Virus record (IMG/VR): IMGVR_UViG_3300031569_000030 | Span: 1-26,807 of that record | Origin: a virus | Direction: 5' to 3' (one strand) | Length of the DNA stretch: 26,807 nt | Part shown: one piece after another, positions 1 through 10,262 of the stretch | Layout of the letters: the number at the start of each line of letters is the position of its first letter | How positions within the stretch are numbered: position 1 is the first letter of the stretch | Translations under genes and position numbers: made by a program | Notes under the pieces: model-generated | What the model was told of the DNA's origin: nothing | Seen by the model: only the letters and a program-made list of their open reading frames with translations | The model's database searches: none

Positions 1-3000
1 CCAGCTATTTCAAAAGTAGTTTTTATATTACCAGCTTCATCTGTTTTCCAACTTAATTTTTTCTTATCTCTTTCAGAGTCTATTTTTAAATCTTTAGAAG
101 CTTTAACTAGTTGAGTTTTAGATTTAACATCAAGACGAGACATACCTTCTTGAACTGCTTTAACATTTTGAGGTGCATCATCTGCAAAGTAAAAATCATT
201 GAAACCTTCAGCTGCTAGATCAACTATAAAATTAGCTTTAGCTAATGGAGAACTATTACCTAGTCCTACTATTTCTAAATTAGTAGTATCTATTCCTTCT
301 GATTCCAACCAAGCTCTTATAGCTGGTTCAGCTTCAGGAGCTCTAGCTGTTAGTATATAAACTTTTCTATCACCTTCAGCTTCTTTTACTTTCTTAAATA
401 AATCAAACAAAGGACCTCTTTTACCATCTCTAACTTTATTAAAGTCTGTAAAATCCATAACAGCACCTTTGTCAACTAAGTCAGATCCTTGCTTTGCAAA
501 CTCTTCAGCTGTTAGTTCACCTTTAGTGCCGTCAGGCATTGTATAAAACACTAAACTATTACTAATAGCTACTGTATCGTCAAAATCAAATAATCTAGCT
601 TTTTTAACTGGAGCATTTTCTCTTCTAGCTTTAGATATAGATTCATCTAAAGTCATCATTTTTCCAATTATTTCAGAAGCTGGAGTGTCTTTTGTTATAT
701 CAATAACACCTGAGTTGTCAATAGAAAATCTATTTTCTGGTTTTTCTATTTCTAAAAATTCTATAATTTCTTCTATAGCTTTTTTGTTTATTATTTTCTG
801 AACTGAAGCATCTTTAACAGATGTTGGAGATTCAGGATCATCAACTGAAACATAATCTTCAGTCTCTAAATTATTAGCAAGAACCCTAAGATCACTAGCA
901 GACGAAGTAGGATCTAATTGAGAGTCCATTTTATCAAATTCTGTTTTAGTACCTAATATTTGAGTATAATTATCTAGTATTTTATCTAACTTAGTATTTA
1001 GTTCATTTATTTGAATATCTTTACTTGATGGATTATCTATTATTTCCGATGCTGTATTTAATACTTGTTCTAATATTTCTTCCATTAATGGCGCAGCAGG
1101 ATCTAAATGCTCACCTTTAAATCTTAATTTGCTAGCTATAAGCGCTTCGTATCTATTAGCTATTTCTTGCTCTGTTAAATCTTTATTTTTTGGATTACTT
1201 AAAACTGATTGAATTTTTTCATCTGCATAATCTTCAGCTTCTTCAAAGTGAGGATGATCTCTATTTAATATATAACCTTTTTTAGGTGTGTTACTAGATT
1301 TTTTACCATCTTCACTTATATACGTGCCTTGTGGCTTGTCTGATATTTCTATAACACTTAAAGTAGTTAAACTTCTTAATGATTTAGTTAAATTTGTTTG
1401 ACCTTCTAATAGTCTCGCAGCACCAGCGGCAAGCTCAGGGTTGTTAGCTACAGCTAAAGTTATTTTTTCTATAATTAATTTAGTAGCTTTTATATTAGCA
1501 TCGTTAGCTTTTAAGATAGTATCCCATAAACCTTTTTCTTTTAGCTTTTTTATTTTAGCATCTTTACTTAAATCTTGATTTAGTATAGTTTCTATTTGAG
1601 CCATGACACCAGATCCAGCGTTGTATTGTCTAATATCTTTTACCCAAGATGGAGATTTAATTTTACTTTTCTTAGACTTTGCTTTAAATTTATCAAATTG
1701 CTTTTTAAAAGGACCGTAAGTATTAGTTTCTTTTTTATATCCCGAATCTAGGTATGTATAGTCATATCCAAAAGCAGCTGGACCAAGTAATTCTACTAAC
1801 TCAGGCGGTAATAGAGCAGCAAGCTCCATATTTAAATCATGCATTTCTAGCATAGATTTTTTATTACGCTTATCCGTAGAGTAAATAAGTTTTTTATTTT
1901 CTTTTTCTTTACTTAATACTCTTTCTATTATATTTCTAAACTTACTAGGTATTTTGCCCTCATCTAAAGCTTTCTTTAGTGTGTCTTTATATTTACCAGT
2001 GTTTGTGAAATAAGGTTCTAATAGTTTTATTGCAACAGATTTCTCTTCATCACTTAGCGCTTCTAAATTTATTCTCAATGCTTCAGGATCTCCACCTTCT
2101 TTTATAGTCTTATCAACTACATCTGTAATGTTTTTAATTAATAAATCTACATCATCTATAGAAAATCTTAAAGTTGGATCTCTATCAATTATATTTGTTA
2201 TTTCAGCTATAATTGCAGCTGGGCTTCCTTCTTCCTTTAGAACGTCAGCAGTGGCTTCCTCGGCTAACGATGTAGCTATAGCTTGAGCTAATTGAGTTTG
2301 TTTTGTAGCTGTAGTTCCTTTTTCAGGTTTTAAATGAAAATTAATAAATTTATCTTTATCAAACTTTAATTTAACCATTAATGATGGGCCAGAAGTTCTA
2401 GGAGTAAATGGAGGTAAATTTCTTTTTGATACTTCTTCATCTACTCTAGTTGGAGATAAATTTACTTCAATTTCATCTGTAAAATCTTGAAAAGACTTAT
2501 TCATTATAGACTGTGGAAGAAACTTGTATATAGCTTCAGAGTTTTCATCTAAAAACTTTTTATACTTATCACTACCTGGAGTACCCATCATTTCTTTAAC
2601 CTTTTTAGTTAAAGCTTTTCTAAATAATTCTTTAAGTCTAGTTCTATATTTTTTAGGATTTTTAACATCTAGTTTCTCATCATTAAGAGCTTTTTTAACC
2701 TCTTCTTTAATTTCATTATAAATATCACTGTCAACTTCTATGCCTAACGCTTTTCTTAAATTAGCTACTTCAACTGGTTCTTCAGCTTGCAGTGCGTCAT
2801 CAAAAGCATCACCAAGATCTTTTTCACCTGATTCTAACTGTGTGCCAAGCTCTTGTAGTTCGTCAAAACTTATATTATCGTATACGTTTTCTGTGTTAAT
2901 TAATTTATCAAATATACCAGGTATTCTTAACTGAAGTAATGGTTTGTTTTTCATTTTGCCAAAAACATAAGCACCAAATGGAACACCAGATTCTATGTCA

Positions 3001-6000
3001 TAAGTATTTATTAAGTCTGAAAAAGCAGCTAAAACCTCAGCTTTAAAATCATCATAAGTAACAGAAGTACCTTTTCTAGAGTCAAAGTTCTTTTTAATTA
3101 TATCAGTAATACCAGGCATGTTGTTTTCAACTAATCTATTTTTAGCTCTTTTGACTTGACTTTCACTTGAATTAGGATCTTTAATAATAGATATTTGCTT
3201 TTCGTTTTCTTTAGACAACTCAAGCAGTTTTCTTAGTTCTTTACTTTTTACAGTGTTTGTAGCAGCTCTTTCTCTCCAATTAGGTGGTTTATTTTCTAAT
3301 AACTTTTTATTTTTTTCTACTATCTTTTTTATTTCAGCTTCAAGATCTGTAGAACTATCTATAGAATACAATACAGGTTCTTCTTTCTCAATTTTTTCCT
3401 TTGGATTTAACTCTTTAAATATAGATTCTGAAGGTGGAGTTTTAGGTTTTTTAGGTTTTTTAGTATCTTGTTTTTTAACAAAAGTATCTTTTGATTTAGG
3501 ATCTATTGTATCTTTTTTAATTTTAGGAGTTGTATCATCACCTTTCTTTCTTCTGTTTTGTAAAAACTTTATAAAAGAATTTTTATTACCTAAGTCTAGT
3601 TCAAAACCAATTAAACTTTTAACCTTGTTTGATACAGCGTCTTTTAAATCAGATAAAACACTTTGATCTAGTTTAGCTTCACCACTTTGTAAAAAGTCTC
3701 CTAAGTTAGCTATCATTTCATCAGCTAAACCTTTATCTTTAAAACCAGCTTCTTTATATTTATCTATAAGATTATTATATTCTTCTGGAACTATCAAACT
3801 ACCATCTTCAATAGCTTCTACAATTTCATTTGCTAAAGCAAAAGTAACTTCGGGACCATATTCTTCTTCTAGATCTTGAACCATAAAGTGATCTCCTTCG
3901 TGAGGAACTACATCTTTACCTCTAATTTTACTATACTCTTTATCGTATATAACTACTGTTTTCCCTTTGTTTGGACCTTTAGTAGCTTTACCTATTACAG
4001 CAATAGTTCTATCACCATTTTCTGTTTCTAAAGCTTCTGCATCCTCATTGATTAAGCCAGCTTCTTTAGCTGCTTGTACAGCTTCTGAGCTTGTTTCAAA
4101 ATCTAAAATTACTTTATCTTTTCTAGTTTCTTTTTGTTTCTTTATATTTTCTTCAATAGTTTTAGATTCTTCACTTTCAACTTTTACTTTACTTATTTCA
4201 AGTAACTCTTTATCTATTTCTTTTATTCTTTCATTTATTTCATTAGTCTGTATAACACCTAAATCGTTATTCTTTTTCTTTTCTAATAAAACTCTTTTTT
4301 CATTTTCTAAGTTGTAAATTTGTTGTTGTTGCTGAGTGTCTTGTGATACATCTATTTTCTTCATGACCTCATGCATCGTAGTTATATCTTTTTTATAAGT
4401 ATCGTAAAGATCATTTATTTCTTGTATAACATTTTGATCACCATTAGCATTATCAATTTCTTTTTGCTTTTGAACTTCTAAGTTATTTATGTATTGATTA
4501 TAAAATTTATTGTCTCTTAATATAAATATTTTTTTAAAGTCTTTAGATTTTAAATTTAAATCATCATTTATTGATTTAGTAACTTTTATCCCGTTGTAAA
4601 CAGACTGAGCGCTAGATATTCCTCCAGCTGCAATAGCAGAAAGTATTGCTGTTTCTTCTAAAACTTCTCTCCATTCCTCCTTTGAAGTTGGCACTTGAAA
4701 ATAATCAAACTTTTCAAAATCTTTATTTACATAACCTTTTGCTATTAATTCTATAATAGTTTGAGCTTCTTCAGTTGGTATTTCAACTGCTGCAGCTTTA
4801 GTAGTAGTTATTATACCTTTATCTACTAACTCTAATATAACTCTTTTTATAGTTTGCTTTTGAGTTTCACCTGGTATTTTATTAACTGATTTACTAAATA
4901 TTCGTGTTATTATTTTAGTTGCACCTGGACCTTTAGCAATTTGCTCTAAACCTAGCTTATCTAATATGCTTATTATAGTACCTACACCTATTGTTAAACC
5001 TAGCCTTTGTGCTGGTTTAAGTTCAACACCGGTTTGTTCTATTCTTTTTTGTATTTCTATAGACTGATCTAATACTATTCTAGGCAATTGCACACCTGGT
5101 GTTAATATTCTAACTCCATGCTTTTTTACTCTTTCCCATAGCTTAGCACCTTTTTTTATTTTACTTGCTTTATTTACTATACCTAAACCTAATGATAAAT
5201 AAAGATCAACAGCAACTTCTAATAGAGTTCTAACAACCTTACCCCAAAGCTCTTGATTTATATTATTTTCTATTTGATCAAACTCAGTAGTGCCTCCAGG
5301 TTTTAATTTAAAGTCATCTATAGCTTCATCTACCATTATAACCCATTTTTTTTCAGCTTCATAAAGTAAATCAGCCATAGTGCTAGAAAATATAGTAGGA
5401 TCAATATTGTCAGCTAAACGAAGAACTCCTTCTGTTATTTCCAGAACTATTTCTATAGCTCCTGGTATTAACTTTTCAAGAGTCCCAGCAACTGTGTTGA
5501 TAACAAATGCTCCACTTTGAGCCAACGTAGGATCTTTTTCTTTTAAATATTCTTGATACTCTTCGTTCATTCTTAGAGCATCTTGACCAGCTTTATGTAT
5601 TTGTGCCTCTAAATCTTTTAATAATACGTTAGCGTAATCTTTTTTAGCATCTAATTCTATATTTCTTTTAATATTGTTTTGTAGATTTTTTCTATTTTCA
5701 CTAAGTATAGTGCTTAAGCTTTTGTTTAAATTACCTTGTTCTTCGTATATTAAAGCTTCACCACCATCACCATCTGCTTTAGGATCTTTAAAAACAAAGC
5801 TTAATCCAGATTCAGTTTCAACAACTGTTTCAGGATTTTTACTAAACTCCGCTACATCTTCTAGTGATCTACTATATGATGTGTCAAATGCTGATTTTTT
5901 TCTAAGTTCAGAAAGTGGCTTATCAAAAAAGTCTTCTTGCATTGAGTCTATTCTACTTAATAAAGAATTATATTCTTCAGCTTTCTCGTCGTGTATTCTA

Positions 6001-7829
6001 GCAACTCTTTTACTTTTGCTTTTTTCGTATTTTTTTCGGAGTTTAGATAGTTCTTTATTAGCAACCGCTAATTCTTCAACTATAGGATATATAGAGTTTT
6101 TATATCCGTCTTCTATAGAATTTATTTTATCTGTAATGTCTTTTATTTTCTGATCAACACTATCATTTGCTATGCTAGCTTGCAAAGATTTAACTTCAGC
6201 TATTGTATTGTTTATTTGCTTAGCTATATCATCGTACTTTTCTAATGGTGTATTATCAAAATCTTTATTATAATCTGTTTTTTCATTATCTAAAAAAGAC
6301 TTTATTTCATCACAGTCTGCAGATTTAATTTTTAATTGAACACCAAAACCGCCTTTACTAGGTGAATCATCTGATTTAACTAGTATATAAGGAGCATCTT
6401 CACCTTCAGGTGTTTGTATACTTCCTGTATATATTCCATCGTAATATGATTTCACAAGAGGACTACCACCACCAGTTATAGGTTCTCCAAATTCATTTTT
6501 ATCAACATTTCCATATAGCCTACCAGAATCTACATCGTAGTAAAAACCATATGCAGCAAATTGAGAATTGTTAAAATCTTTATTTAAGTTTTTAATTACT
6601 TCGCATGGTAAATTATTAACAGCAGAGTTAAATATTTCTTTATTAGAGGTATCTATAGTTTTTTTAGAACTAGGTTTTTCATCTCTAGTTCCTTGATTTT
6701 CTATTTCTAAAGGCCTTATAAAAAGCTCTGGATCTGGCTTAAACAAATCATCAATAAGCCTAGACTCTATATAAGTATCAAAGAAAAAATCTCTTTTAAT
6801 TTCGTTTTCTACATCTTTAATATTTGCTCTTATTTCAAAAACATCAGGAAGTTCTATAGTTTGAGCTTTAAGTGGTACTATTTCAACCGAACCATCTGAA
6901 AAACCAATTGCCGCCTCCGTATTATCTGGAGTGTAATTAGTTTCTTCAACTTCTTTTAGTTGTTTTGCTGGTCTAGGTGGTTCTCCATCTACTCCAGGTA
7001 TTATAGCTTTTAAATCCTCTTGAAGGACTGGCATAATCGATGTTGTTACTTCTGCTTCTTGAGATTTTATACCTATTAATTTACCAGTTTCTGTGGTATA
7101 AGACCCATCTTCTTTTTGTATAGTTTTAGTTGGAACTTGTATATTGTTTTCTAAAAACTCTCTATCTCTTTTATTGATGTCTTCAATAGCTACTATAGAA
7201 CTATCAATGTCTAGCTCTGTAATATTATCAATTTTATTTTCATCTAACTTAGTATACTTTTCTACCAATATCTCTGGAGTTAAAGGTATTACCTCAGTAC
7301 CAGGTTGATTTGCTACATTAATATCTTGTCTACTATAATATTCGTCTATTTCAAAAGACATATGATCATTTAAAACATTATCGTTAGTAGAAATAGGATT
7401 GTATTGTCTAGGAATTACGTTGTTAGGATTAGCAATTTTTCTAGCTTGTCTATTGACTTTTCTAATAGTTCTATCTTTTTGTTCCTTTAGCTTTTCTTTT
7501 CTTTCTTTATTTACTTCAGAAATTAATAGCTTTTTATCTTTCTTTCCAGCATCCTCCCAATATCGCATGCCGTTTTCATCATACTTGTTTCTGCCTTCAC
7601 GTCTTAGTTTAGACTTTATTTTAGTTTTAAGCGACTGATCTTCAAATCTAGCTCCAGTTACAGACGAAACACCGGGTGTTCCTGTAGGATCAAGAACTAT
7701 AGGATCTTTAACTTTTTTAGTTTTAACAGGTGTTTTAGTATATTTCTGCTTAGAAAAACCTCCTTTACGGACTTTTTTTCTTATTTTAGCTGTCTTTGGC
7801 GGTTTACTACTAAATGTTAATTTAGCCAT
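1..7829 (-). CDS. Giant multidomain (polyvalent) virion protein, C-terminus beyond window
   Basis: The frame stays open from an ATG at 7829 to the left edge: 2609 complete codons and no stop. Visible order: Lys/Arg-rich N-terminus (about 1-60); charged and coiled-coil region (about 530-630); hydrophobic Gly/Ala-rich segments (about 772-810, 864-889, 937-960, 1057-1082); a second coiled coil with a run of five Gln (about 1087-1210); a zincin-like domain with HEGDH at 1310-1314; a Lys/Pro linker (about 1430-1490); a sigma-region-2-like segment (about 1555-1640); a helical module of unknown type (about 1893-2367); and a HAD phosphatase domain (about 2405-2565). YSID/FSID motifs occur at 1488, 1889 and 2368. 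It follows two likely internal-virion genes with one base between, and has a strong Shine-Dalgarno sequence. Phage proteins of this size and make-up are usually packaged and ejected with the genome; that role is inferred here. Confidence is high for the ORF, moderate for the role. Confidence 0.85.
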   Translation of the reverse strand, partial: MAKLTFSSKPPKTAKIRKKVRKGGFSKQKYTKTPVKTKKVKDPIVLDPTGTPGVSSVTGARFEDQSLKTKIKSKLRREGRNKYDENGMRYWEDAGKKDKKLLISEVNKERKEKLKEQKDRTIRKVNRQARKIANPNNVIPRQYNPISTNDNVLNDHMSFEIDEYYSRQDINVANQPGTEVIPLTPEILVEKYTKLDENKIDNITELDIDSSIVAIEDINKRDREFLENNIQVPTKTIQKEDGSYTTETGKLIGIKSQEAEVTTSIMPVLQEDLKAIIPGVDGEPPRPAKQLKEVEETNYTPDNTEAAIGFSDGSVEIVPLKAQTIELPDVFEIRANIKDVENEIKRDFFFDTYIESRLIDDLFKPDPELFIRPLEIENQGTRDEKPSSKKTIDTSNKEIFNSAVNNLPCEVIKNLNKDFNNSQFAAYGFYYDVDSGRLYGNVDKNEFGEPITGGGSPLVKSYYDGIYTGSIQTPEGEDAPYILVKSDDSPSKGGFGVQLKIKSADCDEIKSFLDNEKTDYNKDFDNTPLEKYDDIAKQINNTIAEVKSLQASIANDSVDQKIKDITDKINSIEDGYKNSIYPIVEELAVANKELSKLRKKYEKSKSKRVARIHDEKAEEYNSLLSRIDSMQEDFFDKPLSELRKKSAFDTSYSRSLEDVAEFSKNPETVVETESGLSFVFKDPKADGDGGEALIYEEQGNLNKSLSTILSENRKNLQNNIKRNIELDAKKDYANVLLKDLEAQIHKAGQDALRMNEEYQEYLKEKDPTLAQSGAFVINTVAGTLEKLIPGAIEIVLEITEGVLRLADNIDPTIFSSTMADLLYEAEKKWVIMVDEAIDDFKLKPGGTTEFDQIENNINQELWGKVVRTLLEVAVDLYLSLGLGIVNKASKIKKGAKLWERVKKHGVRILTPGVQLPRIVLDQSIEIQKRIEQTGVELKPAQRLGLTIGVGTIISILDKLGLEQIAKGPGATKIITRIFSKSVNKIPGETQKQTIKRVILELVDKGIITTTKAAAVEIPTEEAQTIIELIAKGYVNKDFEKFDYFQVPTSKEEWREVLEETAILSAIAAGGISSAQSVYNGIKVTKSINDDLNLKSKDFKKIFILRDNKFYNQYINNLEVQKQKEIDNANGDQNVIQEINDLYDTYKKDITTMHEVMKKIDVSQDTQQQQQIYNLENEKRVLLEKKKNNDLGVIQTNEINERIKEIDKELLEISKVKVESEESKTIEENIKKQKETRKDKVILDFETSSEAVQAAKEAGLINEDAEALETENGDRTIAVIGKATKGPNKGKTVVIYDKEYSKIRGKDVVPHEGDHFMVQDLEEEYGPEVTFALANEIVEAIEDGSLIVPEEYNNLIDKYKEAGFKDKGLADEMIANLGDFLQSGEAKLDQSVLSDLKDAVSNKVKSLIGFELDLGNKNSFIKFLQNRRKKGDDTTPKIKKDTIDPKSKDTFVKKQDTKKPKKPKTPPSESIFKELNPKEKIEKEEPVLYSIDSSTDLEAEIKKIVEKNKKLLENKPPNWRERAATNTVKSKELRKLLELSKENEKQISIIKDPNSSESQVKRAKNRLVENNMPGITDIIKKNFDSRKGTSVTYDDFKAEVLAAFSDLINTYDIESGVPFGAYVFGKMKNKPLLQLRIPGIFDKLINTENVYDNISFDELQELGTQLESGEKDLGDAFDDALQAEEPVEVANLRKALGIEVDSDIYNEIKEEVKKALNDEKLDVKNPKKYRTRLKELFRKALTKKVKEMMGTPGSDKYKKFLDENSEAIYKFLPQSIMNKSFQDFTDEIEVNLSPTRVDEEVSKRNLPPFTPRTSGPSLMVKLKFDKDKFINFHLKPEKGTTATKQTQLAQAIATSLAEEATADVLKEEGSPAAIIAEITNIIDRDPTLRFSIDDVDLLIKNITDVVDKTIKEGGDPEALRINLEALSDEEKSVAIKLLEPYFTNTGKYKDTLKKALDEGKIPSKFRNIIERVLSKEKENKKLIYSTDKRNKKSMLEMHDLNMELAALLPPELVELLGPAAFGYDYTYLDSGYKKETNTYGPFKKQFDKFKAKSKKSKIKSPSWVKDIRQYNAGSGVMAQIETILNQDLSKDAKIKKLKEKGLWDTILKANDANIKATKLIIEKITLAVANNPELAAGAARLLEGQTNLTKSLRSLTTLSVIEISDKPQGTYISEDGKKSSNTPKKGYILNRDHPHFEEAEDYADEKIQSVLSNPKNKDLTEQEIANRYEALIASKLRFKGEHLDPAAPLMEEILEQVLNTASEIIDNPSSKDIQINELNTKLDKILDNYTQILGTKTEFDKMDSQLDPTSSASDLRVLANNLETEDYVSVDDPESPTSVKDASVQKIINKKAIEEIIEFLEIEKPENRFSIDNSGVIDITKDTPASEIIGKMMTLDESISKARRENAPVKKARLFDFDDTVAISNSLVFYTMPDGTKGELTAEEFAKQGSDLVDKGAVMDFTDFNKVRDGKRGPLFDLFKKVKEAEGDRKVYILTARAPEAEPAIRAWLESEGIDTTNLEIVGLGNSSPLAKANFIVDLAAEGFNDFYFADDAPQNVKAVQEGMSRLDVKSKTQLVKASKDLKIDSERDKKKLSWKTDEAGNIKTTFEIA
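135..617 (-). other. HAD-superfamily phosphatase domain inside the giant protein
   Basis: About residues 2405-2565. Motif I is DFDDT at 2415-2419, with nucleophile D2415 and acid D2417. Motif II is the Thr of LTARAP (T2494). Motif IV is the FADDAP pair D2550/D2551. Lys candidates for motif III lie between motifs II and IV. Order and spacing fit a Mg-dependent HAD phosphatase, and a domain of the T4 polynucleotide 3'-phosphatase type is plausible. The substrate cannot be read from the sequence. Nucleic-acid end repair or nucleotide dephosphorylation during host takeover is a guess. Confidence 0.8.
2910..3167 (-). other. Sigma-70 region 2-like segment inside the giant protein
   Basis: About residues 1555-1640. 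The pattern runs AKNRLVENN (from 1562), then a TYDDFKAEV stretch, then INTYDIESGVPFGAY ending at Y1621, then a Lys/Arg-bearing helix with M1626. This parallels sigma-70 regions 1.2-2.4, where AK..-VE.N, then D.IQEG, then KFE..RG..F.TYA..WIR occur in the same order and spacing. Family memory says similar segments occur in other giant phage proteins. No region 4-like helix-turn-helix was recognised nearby, so it is probably not a complete sigma factor. Confidence 0.55.
3675..4127 (-). other. Zincin-like metallopeptidase domain inside the giant protein
   Basis: About residues 1235-1385. HEGDH at 1310-1314 fits the HExxH zinc-binding and catalytic motif and is preceded by a short beta-like stretch (KTVVIYD) and VVP. 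A possible third zinc ligand is E1371 in ADEMIANLGDFL, 57 residues after H1314. Zincin domains of this kind are known in phage polyvalent proteins. Proteolytic self-processing or host-protein cleavage is inferred, not shown. Confidence 0.6.
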
Positions 7830-9860: not shown

Positions 9861-10262
9861 TTAATTTAAAATTTTAACTAATTCATGAGATGGTCTTTTA
9901 TCTGCATGCCATCCTAATTTTTTATGTGTTTCTATTAGACTTTTATGTCTACATATACTAAAAGAATACTTGTACCCAAGATCTTTTATAATTTCTTCAG
10001 CTCCAGTTATTAATAACTCTAAAGCTTGTTTTCTATTATCTTCTCTATATTCTGGATCTGATACTATCCACTCTAATAAAGCTACTTTAGCATTTGTTAA
10101 GTATATAAAGCCAGCTGCTACAGGTTTATTATTGTTTTCAACAACTACACCTGTTTCAGGTAGAAAATCATCGGCAGGAGATACCCACTCAGGCCAAGCT
10201 TCCCACCATTTTTTAATAAAAGTTAAATCACCTTGTTTTAACTTTCTAATATTTAATTCCAT
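9861..10262 (-). CDS. GNAT-family acetyltransferase-like protein
   Basis: 133 residues with the GNAT order: N-terminal beta strand and helices (LNIRKLKQGDLTFI), a central strand pair around 41-58 (VVVENNNKPVAAGFIY), the strand EWIVSDPEYR (64-73), the acetyl-CoA loop and helix (about 73-90), and a C-terminal helix KSLIETHKKLGW (107-118) typical of the family. The acetyl-CoA pyrophosphate loop, normally R/Q-x-x-G-x-G/A, reads REDNRKQA and lacks both glycines, so catalysis may be weak or lost. It sits in the middle of virion genes, which suggests it acts on, or is packed with, virion proteins. No substrate can be named. Confidence 0.75.
   Translation of the reverse strand: MELNIRKLKQGDLTFIKKWWEAWPEWVSPADDFLPETGVVVENNNKPVAAGFIYLTNAKVALLEWIVSDPEYREDNRKQALELLITGAEEIIKDLGYKYSFSICRHKSLIETHKKLGWHADKRPSHELVKILN

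Follow-up and report, generated by a model that had tools for sequence, protein, structure and literature searches.

A diverged sigma-70 region 2-like domain within a giant, probably virion-borne protein of a Bacteroidota-type podovirus

Why would a giant phage protein encoded beside the tail genes carry a segment that resembles the core of a bacterial sigma factor? The window (the whole 26.8-kb virus record that was analysed) carries terminase, portal, capsid and tail genes resembling those of Bacteroidota podoviruses, its TerL sharing 63% identity with that of a Manatee Spring phage and 46% with those of Flavobacterium elemo phages. The giant gene starts with ATG, occupies 3..7829 on the minus strand and is open at the window edge, encoding at least 2609 aa; in the close relative L002, which is 84% identical across the giant and 97% within the sigma-like segment, the full-length gene encodes 3382 aa. 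The giant gene adjoins the tail genes and closes the structural module of this Bacteroidota-type podovirus, and its product shares with the injected polyvalent class the features of a very large multidomain protein encoded with late or structural genes. Inside the structural module lies also a small gene at 9861-10262 (-), which matches phrog_17252 (function unknown) and has conserved counterparts in the elemo and Manatee Spring phages, named there N-terminal acetyltransferase complex subunit. Pfam and NCBIfam searches of the whole giant returned nothing useful, tblastn against phage records found no kin of the giant and a scan of genome contigs found no relatives; residues 2400-2588 (66..632, minus strand) resemble a HAD/polynucleotide-kinase phosphatase domain (phrog_415, E 5.7e-6).

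The sigma-70 region 1.2-2.3-like domain spans residues ~1538-1644 (2898..3218, minus strand) as defined by the range superposing on SigmaA domain 2, and the borders of the family HMM delimit a conserved module core at residues 1554-1639 (2913..3170, minus strand). AKNRLVENN (residues 1562-1570) and INTYDIESGVPFGAY (residues 1607-1621) were found together at plus-strand positions 3146..2967, indicating that the sequence-only reading, which had placed the segment at 2910-3167, had its coordinates right. It had further proposed that the segment follows the order of sigma regions 1.2-2.4; the LVENN helix, the acidic D..E helix, tY.iesGvpFgaY and a further helix do follow that order, but the residues of region 2.4 are not present in what it had called a basic helix. 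The GVPFGAY motif (2967..2987, minus strand) corresponds by register to RpoD 424-430. Further downstream, an acidic stretch ISFDELQELGTQLESGEKDLGDAFDD (residues 1653-1678; 2796..2873, minus strand) resembles by eye the region 3.2 linker and forms a low-confidence part of the predicted model; in the relative L024, the match to an HMM made of sigma factors alone runs on through this region 3.2-like part.

Scanning the segment alone (2808-3251, minus strand) against PHROGs with hmmscan revealed a match to phrog_351 'RNA polymerase sigma factor' at E 3.9e-9, which was E 3.2e-8 with looser borders, and the whole record matched this family at E 5.4e-12 at 2946-3359(-). phrog_351 is a genuine sigma family, E. 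coli RpoD matching it at E 3.3e-276. The sigma-only HMM, composed of seven authentic sigma factors, was run on 100 whole giants and, as decoys, on 500 shuffled ones; the window giant ranked second of the 100 with an iE of 8.9e-7 while the best shuffled giant reached 4.2, and nearly all leading matches sit on the same module. Giants retrieved by their C-terminal module, and hence without selection for a GVPFGAY-type motif, also matched this HMM, the best at 1.3e-5. An hhalign comparison of 17 relatives, with no recognised sigma among them, against RpoD, RpoS, RpoH, FliA and a cyanophage sigma scored 43.7 (P 2.1e-6), the maximum among 200 column shuffles being 15.9. A DNA pattern for the GVPFGAYV peptide, based on the window sequence with no sigma factor used in its design, led to six viral loci, each a large ORF with the same extended segment; the profile of these six segments placed RpoD first among all PDB sequences (E 0.011) in the correct register, and a longer profile returned RpoD chains only (E 0.04-0.25). 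With tblastn, relative L024 reached Bacillus phage and cyanophage proteins among 50,697 phage records, several of them annotated as sigma (E 0.02-0.6). Pfam Sigma70_r2 stayed below its cut-off in the window and gave no match across the record, a single-sequence Pfam search found nothing in the giant, and a PHROGs scan of the whole giant protein missed the sigma-like domain; the latter two misses are probably due to HMMER filters rejecting a long, compositionally biased protein. By profile similarity, then, the segment belongs with sigma-70 region 2.

The predicted structure was obtained with AlphaFold2 from the 17-member alignment, which holds no recognised sigma factors, and without templates. 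The model of the window segment (mean pLDDT 75.6, pTM 0.68) has the helical fold of sigma domain 2, and VIA-align superposed it on SigmaA domain 2 (4x8k) with 2.1 A over 97 residues and Z 9.9; for helical bundles, a Z near 10 falls short of the stated caution level. Sigma factors made up essentially the whole VIA-align top 50 and every row among the Foldseek matches listed (probability up to 0.99, E 0.1-0.5); with an earlier, longer model of low confidence, sigma factors still headed the Foldseek list. For a helical bundle Z alone is not decisive, and the decisive point is the agreement of structure and sequence. Together, the profiles and the predicted model strongly support that the segment is a diverged homologue of sigma-70 region 1.2-2.3. 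The homology to sigma region 2 proposed in the sequence-only reading is thus borne out by sequence profiles, relatives and structure prediction alike, including the expected likeness of the predicted fold to the region 2 helical bundle. Its further proposal of an injected virion protein that would bind core polymerase and redirect or block it is plausible in view of the giant's architecture and its relatives. The significant Sigma70_r2 match that it had looked for did not materialize, as the window missed the Pfam cut-off; the outcome that it had named as speaking against homology, no sigma match in profile or structure comparison, did not occur, given phrog_351, hhalign and the SigmaA fit.

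Across relatives, blastp defined as the main conserved zones the sigma-like module (~1500-1790 in L002) and the C-terminal ~800 residues, with 32-45% identity in the C-terminal module. The latter, ~640 aa of unknown function at L002:16906-18828(+), has no Pfam match and is very abundant in marine viral contigs, with at least 590 stretches in IMG/VR. Among the best 80 of these at least 590 loci, a best-scoring and not a random sample, 18 carry the sigma-like module at the HMM level, with 0 matches in 500 decoys. A cluster of 48 other giants carries a remote version of the module in the same place (88.9% probability, score 40.1 versus a null maximum of 10.4), for which direct similarity to cellular sigma was not significant; in the giants of the Manatee Spring phage, elemo, phi38:1, phi13:2 and Gundel_1 the module was not detected. 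Upstream of the module, the window giant carries HEGDH, an HExxH zincin-type metallopeptidase motif (residues 1310-1314; 3888..3902, minus strand), at a distance of ~240 residues, compared with ~160-240 across giants. HExxH is present in 85 of the 100 giants, with 0.7 expected from shuffles, and HEGDH is positionally conserved in relatives; a single-sequence Pfam search gave no peptidase profile match.

An unmistakable sigma region 2 was also observed in giants of quite different viruses (L042:2578-11481(-), L069:1-9783(-) and L075:3-4181(+)), with Pfam region 2 matches above the cut-off in L042 (E 1.6e-14) and L069 (E 6e-8) and a similar one in L075. Giants of this type have open frames of ~5,800 aa; all three show a weak region 4 match and a finger-like ELDAPVGEMDGET stretch, and in L042 and L069 the protein also contains helicase domains (Strawberry-notch or SNF2 type). 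As judged from these matches, each of these polyvalent proteins contains a sigma factor that is nearly complete. Given that a clear region 2 occurs in giants of such different viruses, we infer that the sigma domain entered polyvalent giants in more than one lineage or spread by recombination. Separately from the giants, several marine relatives that carry the giant encode a full sigma factor of ~250 aa (L086:916-1668(+), L087:685-1440(-), L088:471-1223(+) and L089:1104-1589(-)), and short independent ORFs in L029, L031, L035, L041 and L076, whose sigma region 2-like part surrounds GVPFGAYL, look like a Rhizobium phage sigma factor.

What the domain might do is suggested by the residues it has kept and lost. 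In the RpoD register the window keeps the equivalents of D403, E407, G424, F427 and Y430, and with D403 and E407 it retains putative core-binding residues of regions 2.1-2.2. Of 25 ungapped relatives, all have Y430, 23 have G424, 22 have D/E403 and 7 have E407; the most diverged branch carries another residue at 407 as well. In sigma-70, W433, W434, Q437 and T440 serve melting and -10 recognition, and by the same register the equivalents of these promoter-contact residues are absent from the window. A region 4 HMM run on the giants found nothing above decoys and hence no complete sigma factor, consistent with the earlier remark that no region 4 is visible; the downstream part scored 16.7 against region 4 by hhalign, with a null of up to 14.1 and over 25 columns only. 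Since the core-side residues are kept and W433, W434, Q437 and T440 are lost, binding of the host core appears more likely than classical -10 recognition, and a classical promoter-specific partial sigma appears less likely than a core-binding module, as the promoter-contact residues of 2.3/2.4 are missing. Whether partial sigma or competitor of host sigma, the residue pattern favours a domain that would bind the core without classical -10 recognition.

We therefore put forward, as a reading that we hold to be rather probable, that the segment is a diverged sigma-70 region 2 core-binding domain in a packaged polyvalent giant, which would dock on the host polymerase and favour the phage genome. 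The giant would be packaged and ejected into the cell together with the DNA, where the HExxH peptidase may release the sigma-like domain. The domain would then dock on the beta' clamp helices of the host core RNA polymerase and compete or partner with host sigma, biasing host transcription to the phage genome ahead of any phage gene expression; the separate full sigma factor of some of these phages would presumably serve later genes. The wider proposal, that widespread marine phages deliver a peptidase-freed sigma domain 2 from the virion and so capture the host polymerase for the incoming genome, is tentative.

The same residues could be read in another way, namely that the domain acts mainly as a decoy or inhibitor: by sitting on the beta' clamp helices it would drive host sigma off and silence host transcription, with no part in directing initiation. 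The kept core-side residues, the lost promoter-contact residues, the lack of a detected region 4 and the separate complete sigma factor of some of these phages would all suit such a role, but one or a few copies per virion facing thousands of polymerases would hardly achieve bulk shut-off, and we regard it as rather unlikely. It is improbable, in our judgement, that the sigma-descended domain no longer binds polymerase and now works as a structural or DNA-holding element of the virion or of the ejection process. Such a role would agree with the strong divergence, above all of the 48-member branch, in which sigma similarity is almost gone, and with the variation of residue 407 and of the 2.4 helix; against it, the giant varies outside its conserved zones, of which the module is one, and D/E403, G424 and Y430 have been retained.

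The preferred reading of a core-binding domain delivered at entry also depends on the giant being part of the particle. From the gene order and the annotations of relatives, the giant is probably carried in the virus particle. Gundel_1 gp074, annotated 'structural protein', shares part of the C-terminal module (7.4e-12); the wording 'mass spectrometry' is absent from the main text of the Gundel_1 phage paper. In their survey of polyvalent proteins, Iyer et al. 2017 (PMC5512222) report that every N4-like virion RNA polymerase is fused to a zincin peptidase within an injected protein of this class, and argue that phages establish transcription on entry by means of such proteins. With its HExxH motif ahead of the sigma-like module, the giant is laid out in the manner of injected polyvalent proteins, the N4 virion RNA polymerase among them. 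As virion status is deduced from position and from relatives' annotations, one might instead suppose that the giant is not injected and is a late cytoplasmic protein whose sigma-like domain would target polymerase at a late stage of infection; given its place as the last structural-module gene beside the tail genes, its HExxH and polyvalent layout and the annotation of the partly homologous gp074, this is improbable. A chance likeness between a charged helical segment and sigma factors, suggested by the lysine/glutamate-rich composition of the protein and by the empty single-sequence Pfam search, was rejected as highly improbable on the strength of the hhalign shuffles, the shuffled-giant decoys, the position-specific recurrence in relatives and the significant PHROGs matches.

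The occurrence of the module in related marine viruses suggests a so far undescribed route to the host transcription machinery at the start of infection. If true, it would parallel the N4 virion RNA polymerase, with a sigma domain as the means and no phage gene expression needed, and a core-binding module delivered with the DNA would offer a new explanation of how transcription of the earliest genes begins in many marine phages. The hypothesis is testable with one small domain, and the sigma-like module provides a function-bearing anchor for giant viral proteins that lack annotation and form a large family, of which IMG/VR holds the stretches counted above. The word 'sigma' is absent from Iyer et al. 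2017 (PMC5512222), and the open-access literature searched yielded no virion or polyvalent protein described as carrying a sigma domain. Sigma region 2 and polyvalent proteins are already known; what is probably new is a sigma domain within a polyvalent, probably injected protein.

Compared with known systems, the giant is, like the N4 virion RNA polymerase and P1 DarB, a giant multidomain protein of the late module with HExxH and a presumed role in early infection; unlike the N4 enzyme, it has a sigma-like domain in place of an RNA polymerase. With T4 Alt and similar RNA polymerase-modifying virion proteins it would share the target and the time of action, but whereas T4 Alt is an ADP-ribosyltransferase (PMC5512222), the window domain would act by binding. 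With sigma-70 region 2 itself (RpoD/SigA; PF04542, phrog_351) the domain has in common the register of 1.2-2.3, the predicted fold and D403/E407/G424/F427/Y430; it differs in being embedded in a giant, in the loss of W433/W434/Q437/T440, in a region 4 that was not found and in a score below the Pfam cut-off. Its region 2 is homologous to that of the stand-alone phage sigma factors of SPO1-type phages and cyanophages, the L024 tblastn search reaching annotated cyanophage sigmas; each of these is encoded by a small gene of its own, and the cyanophage one includes a region 4, whereas the sigma-like region of the window is one domain of a giant.
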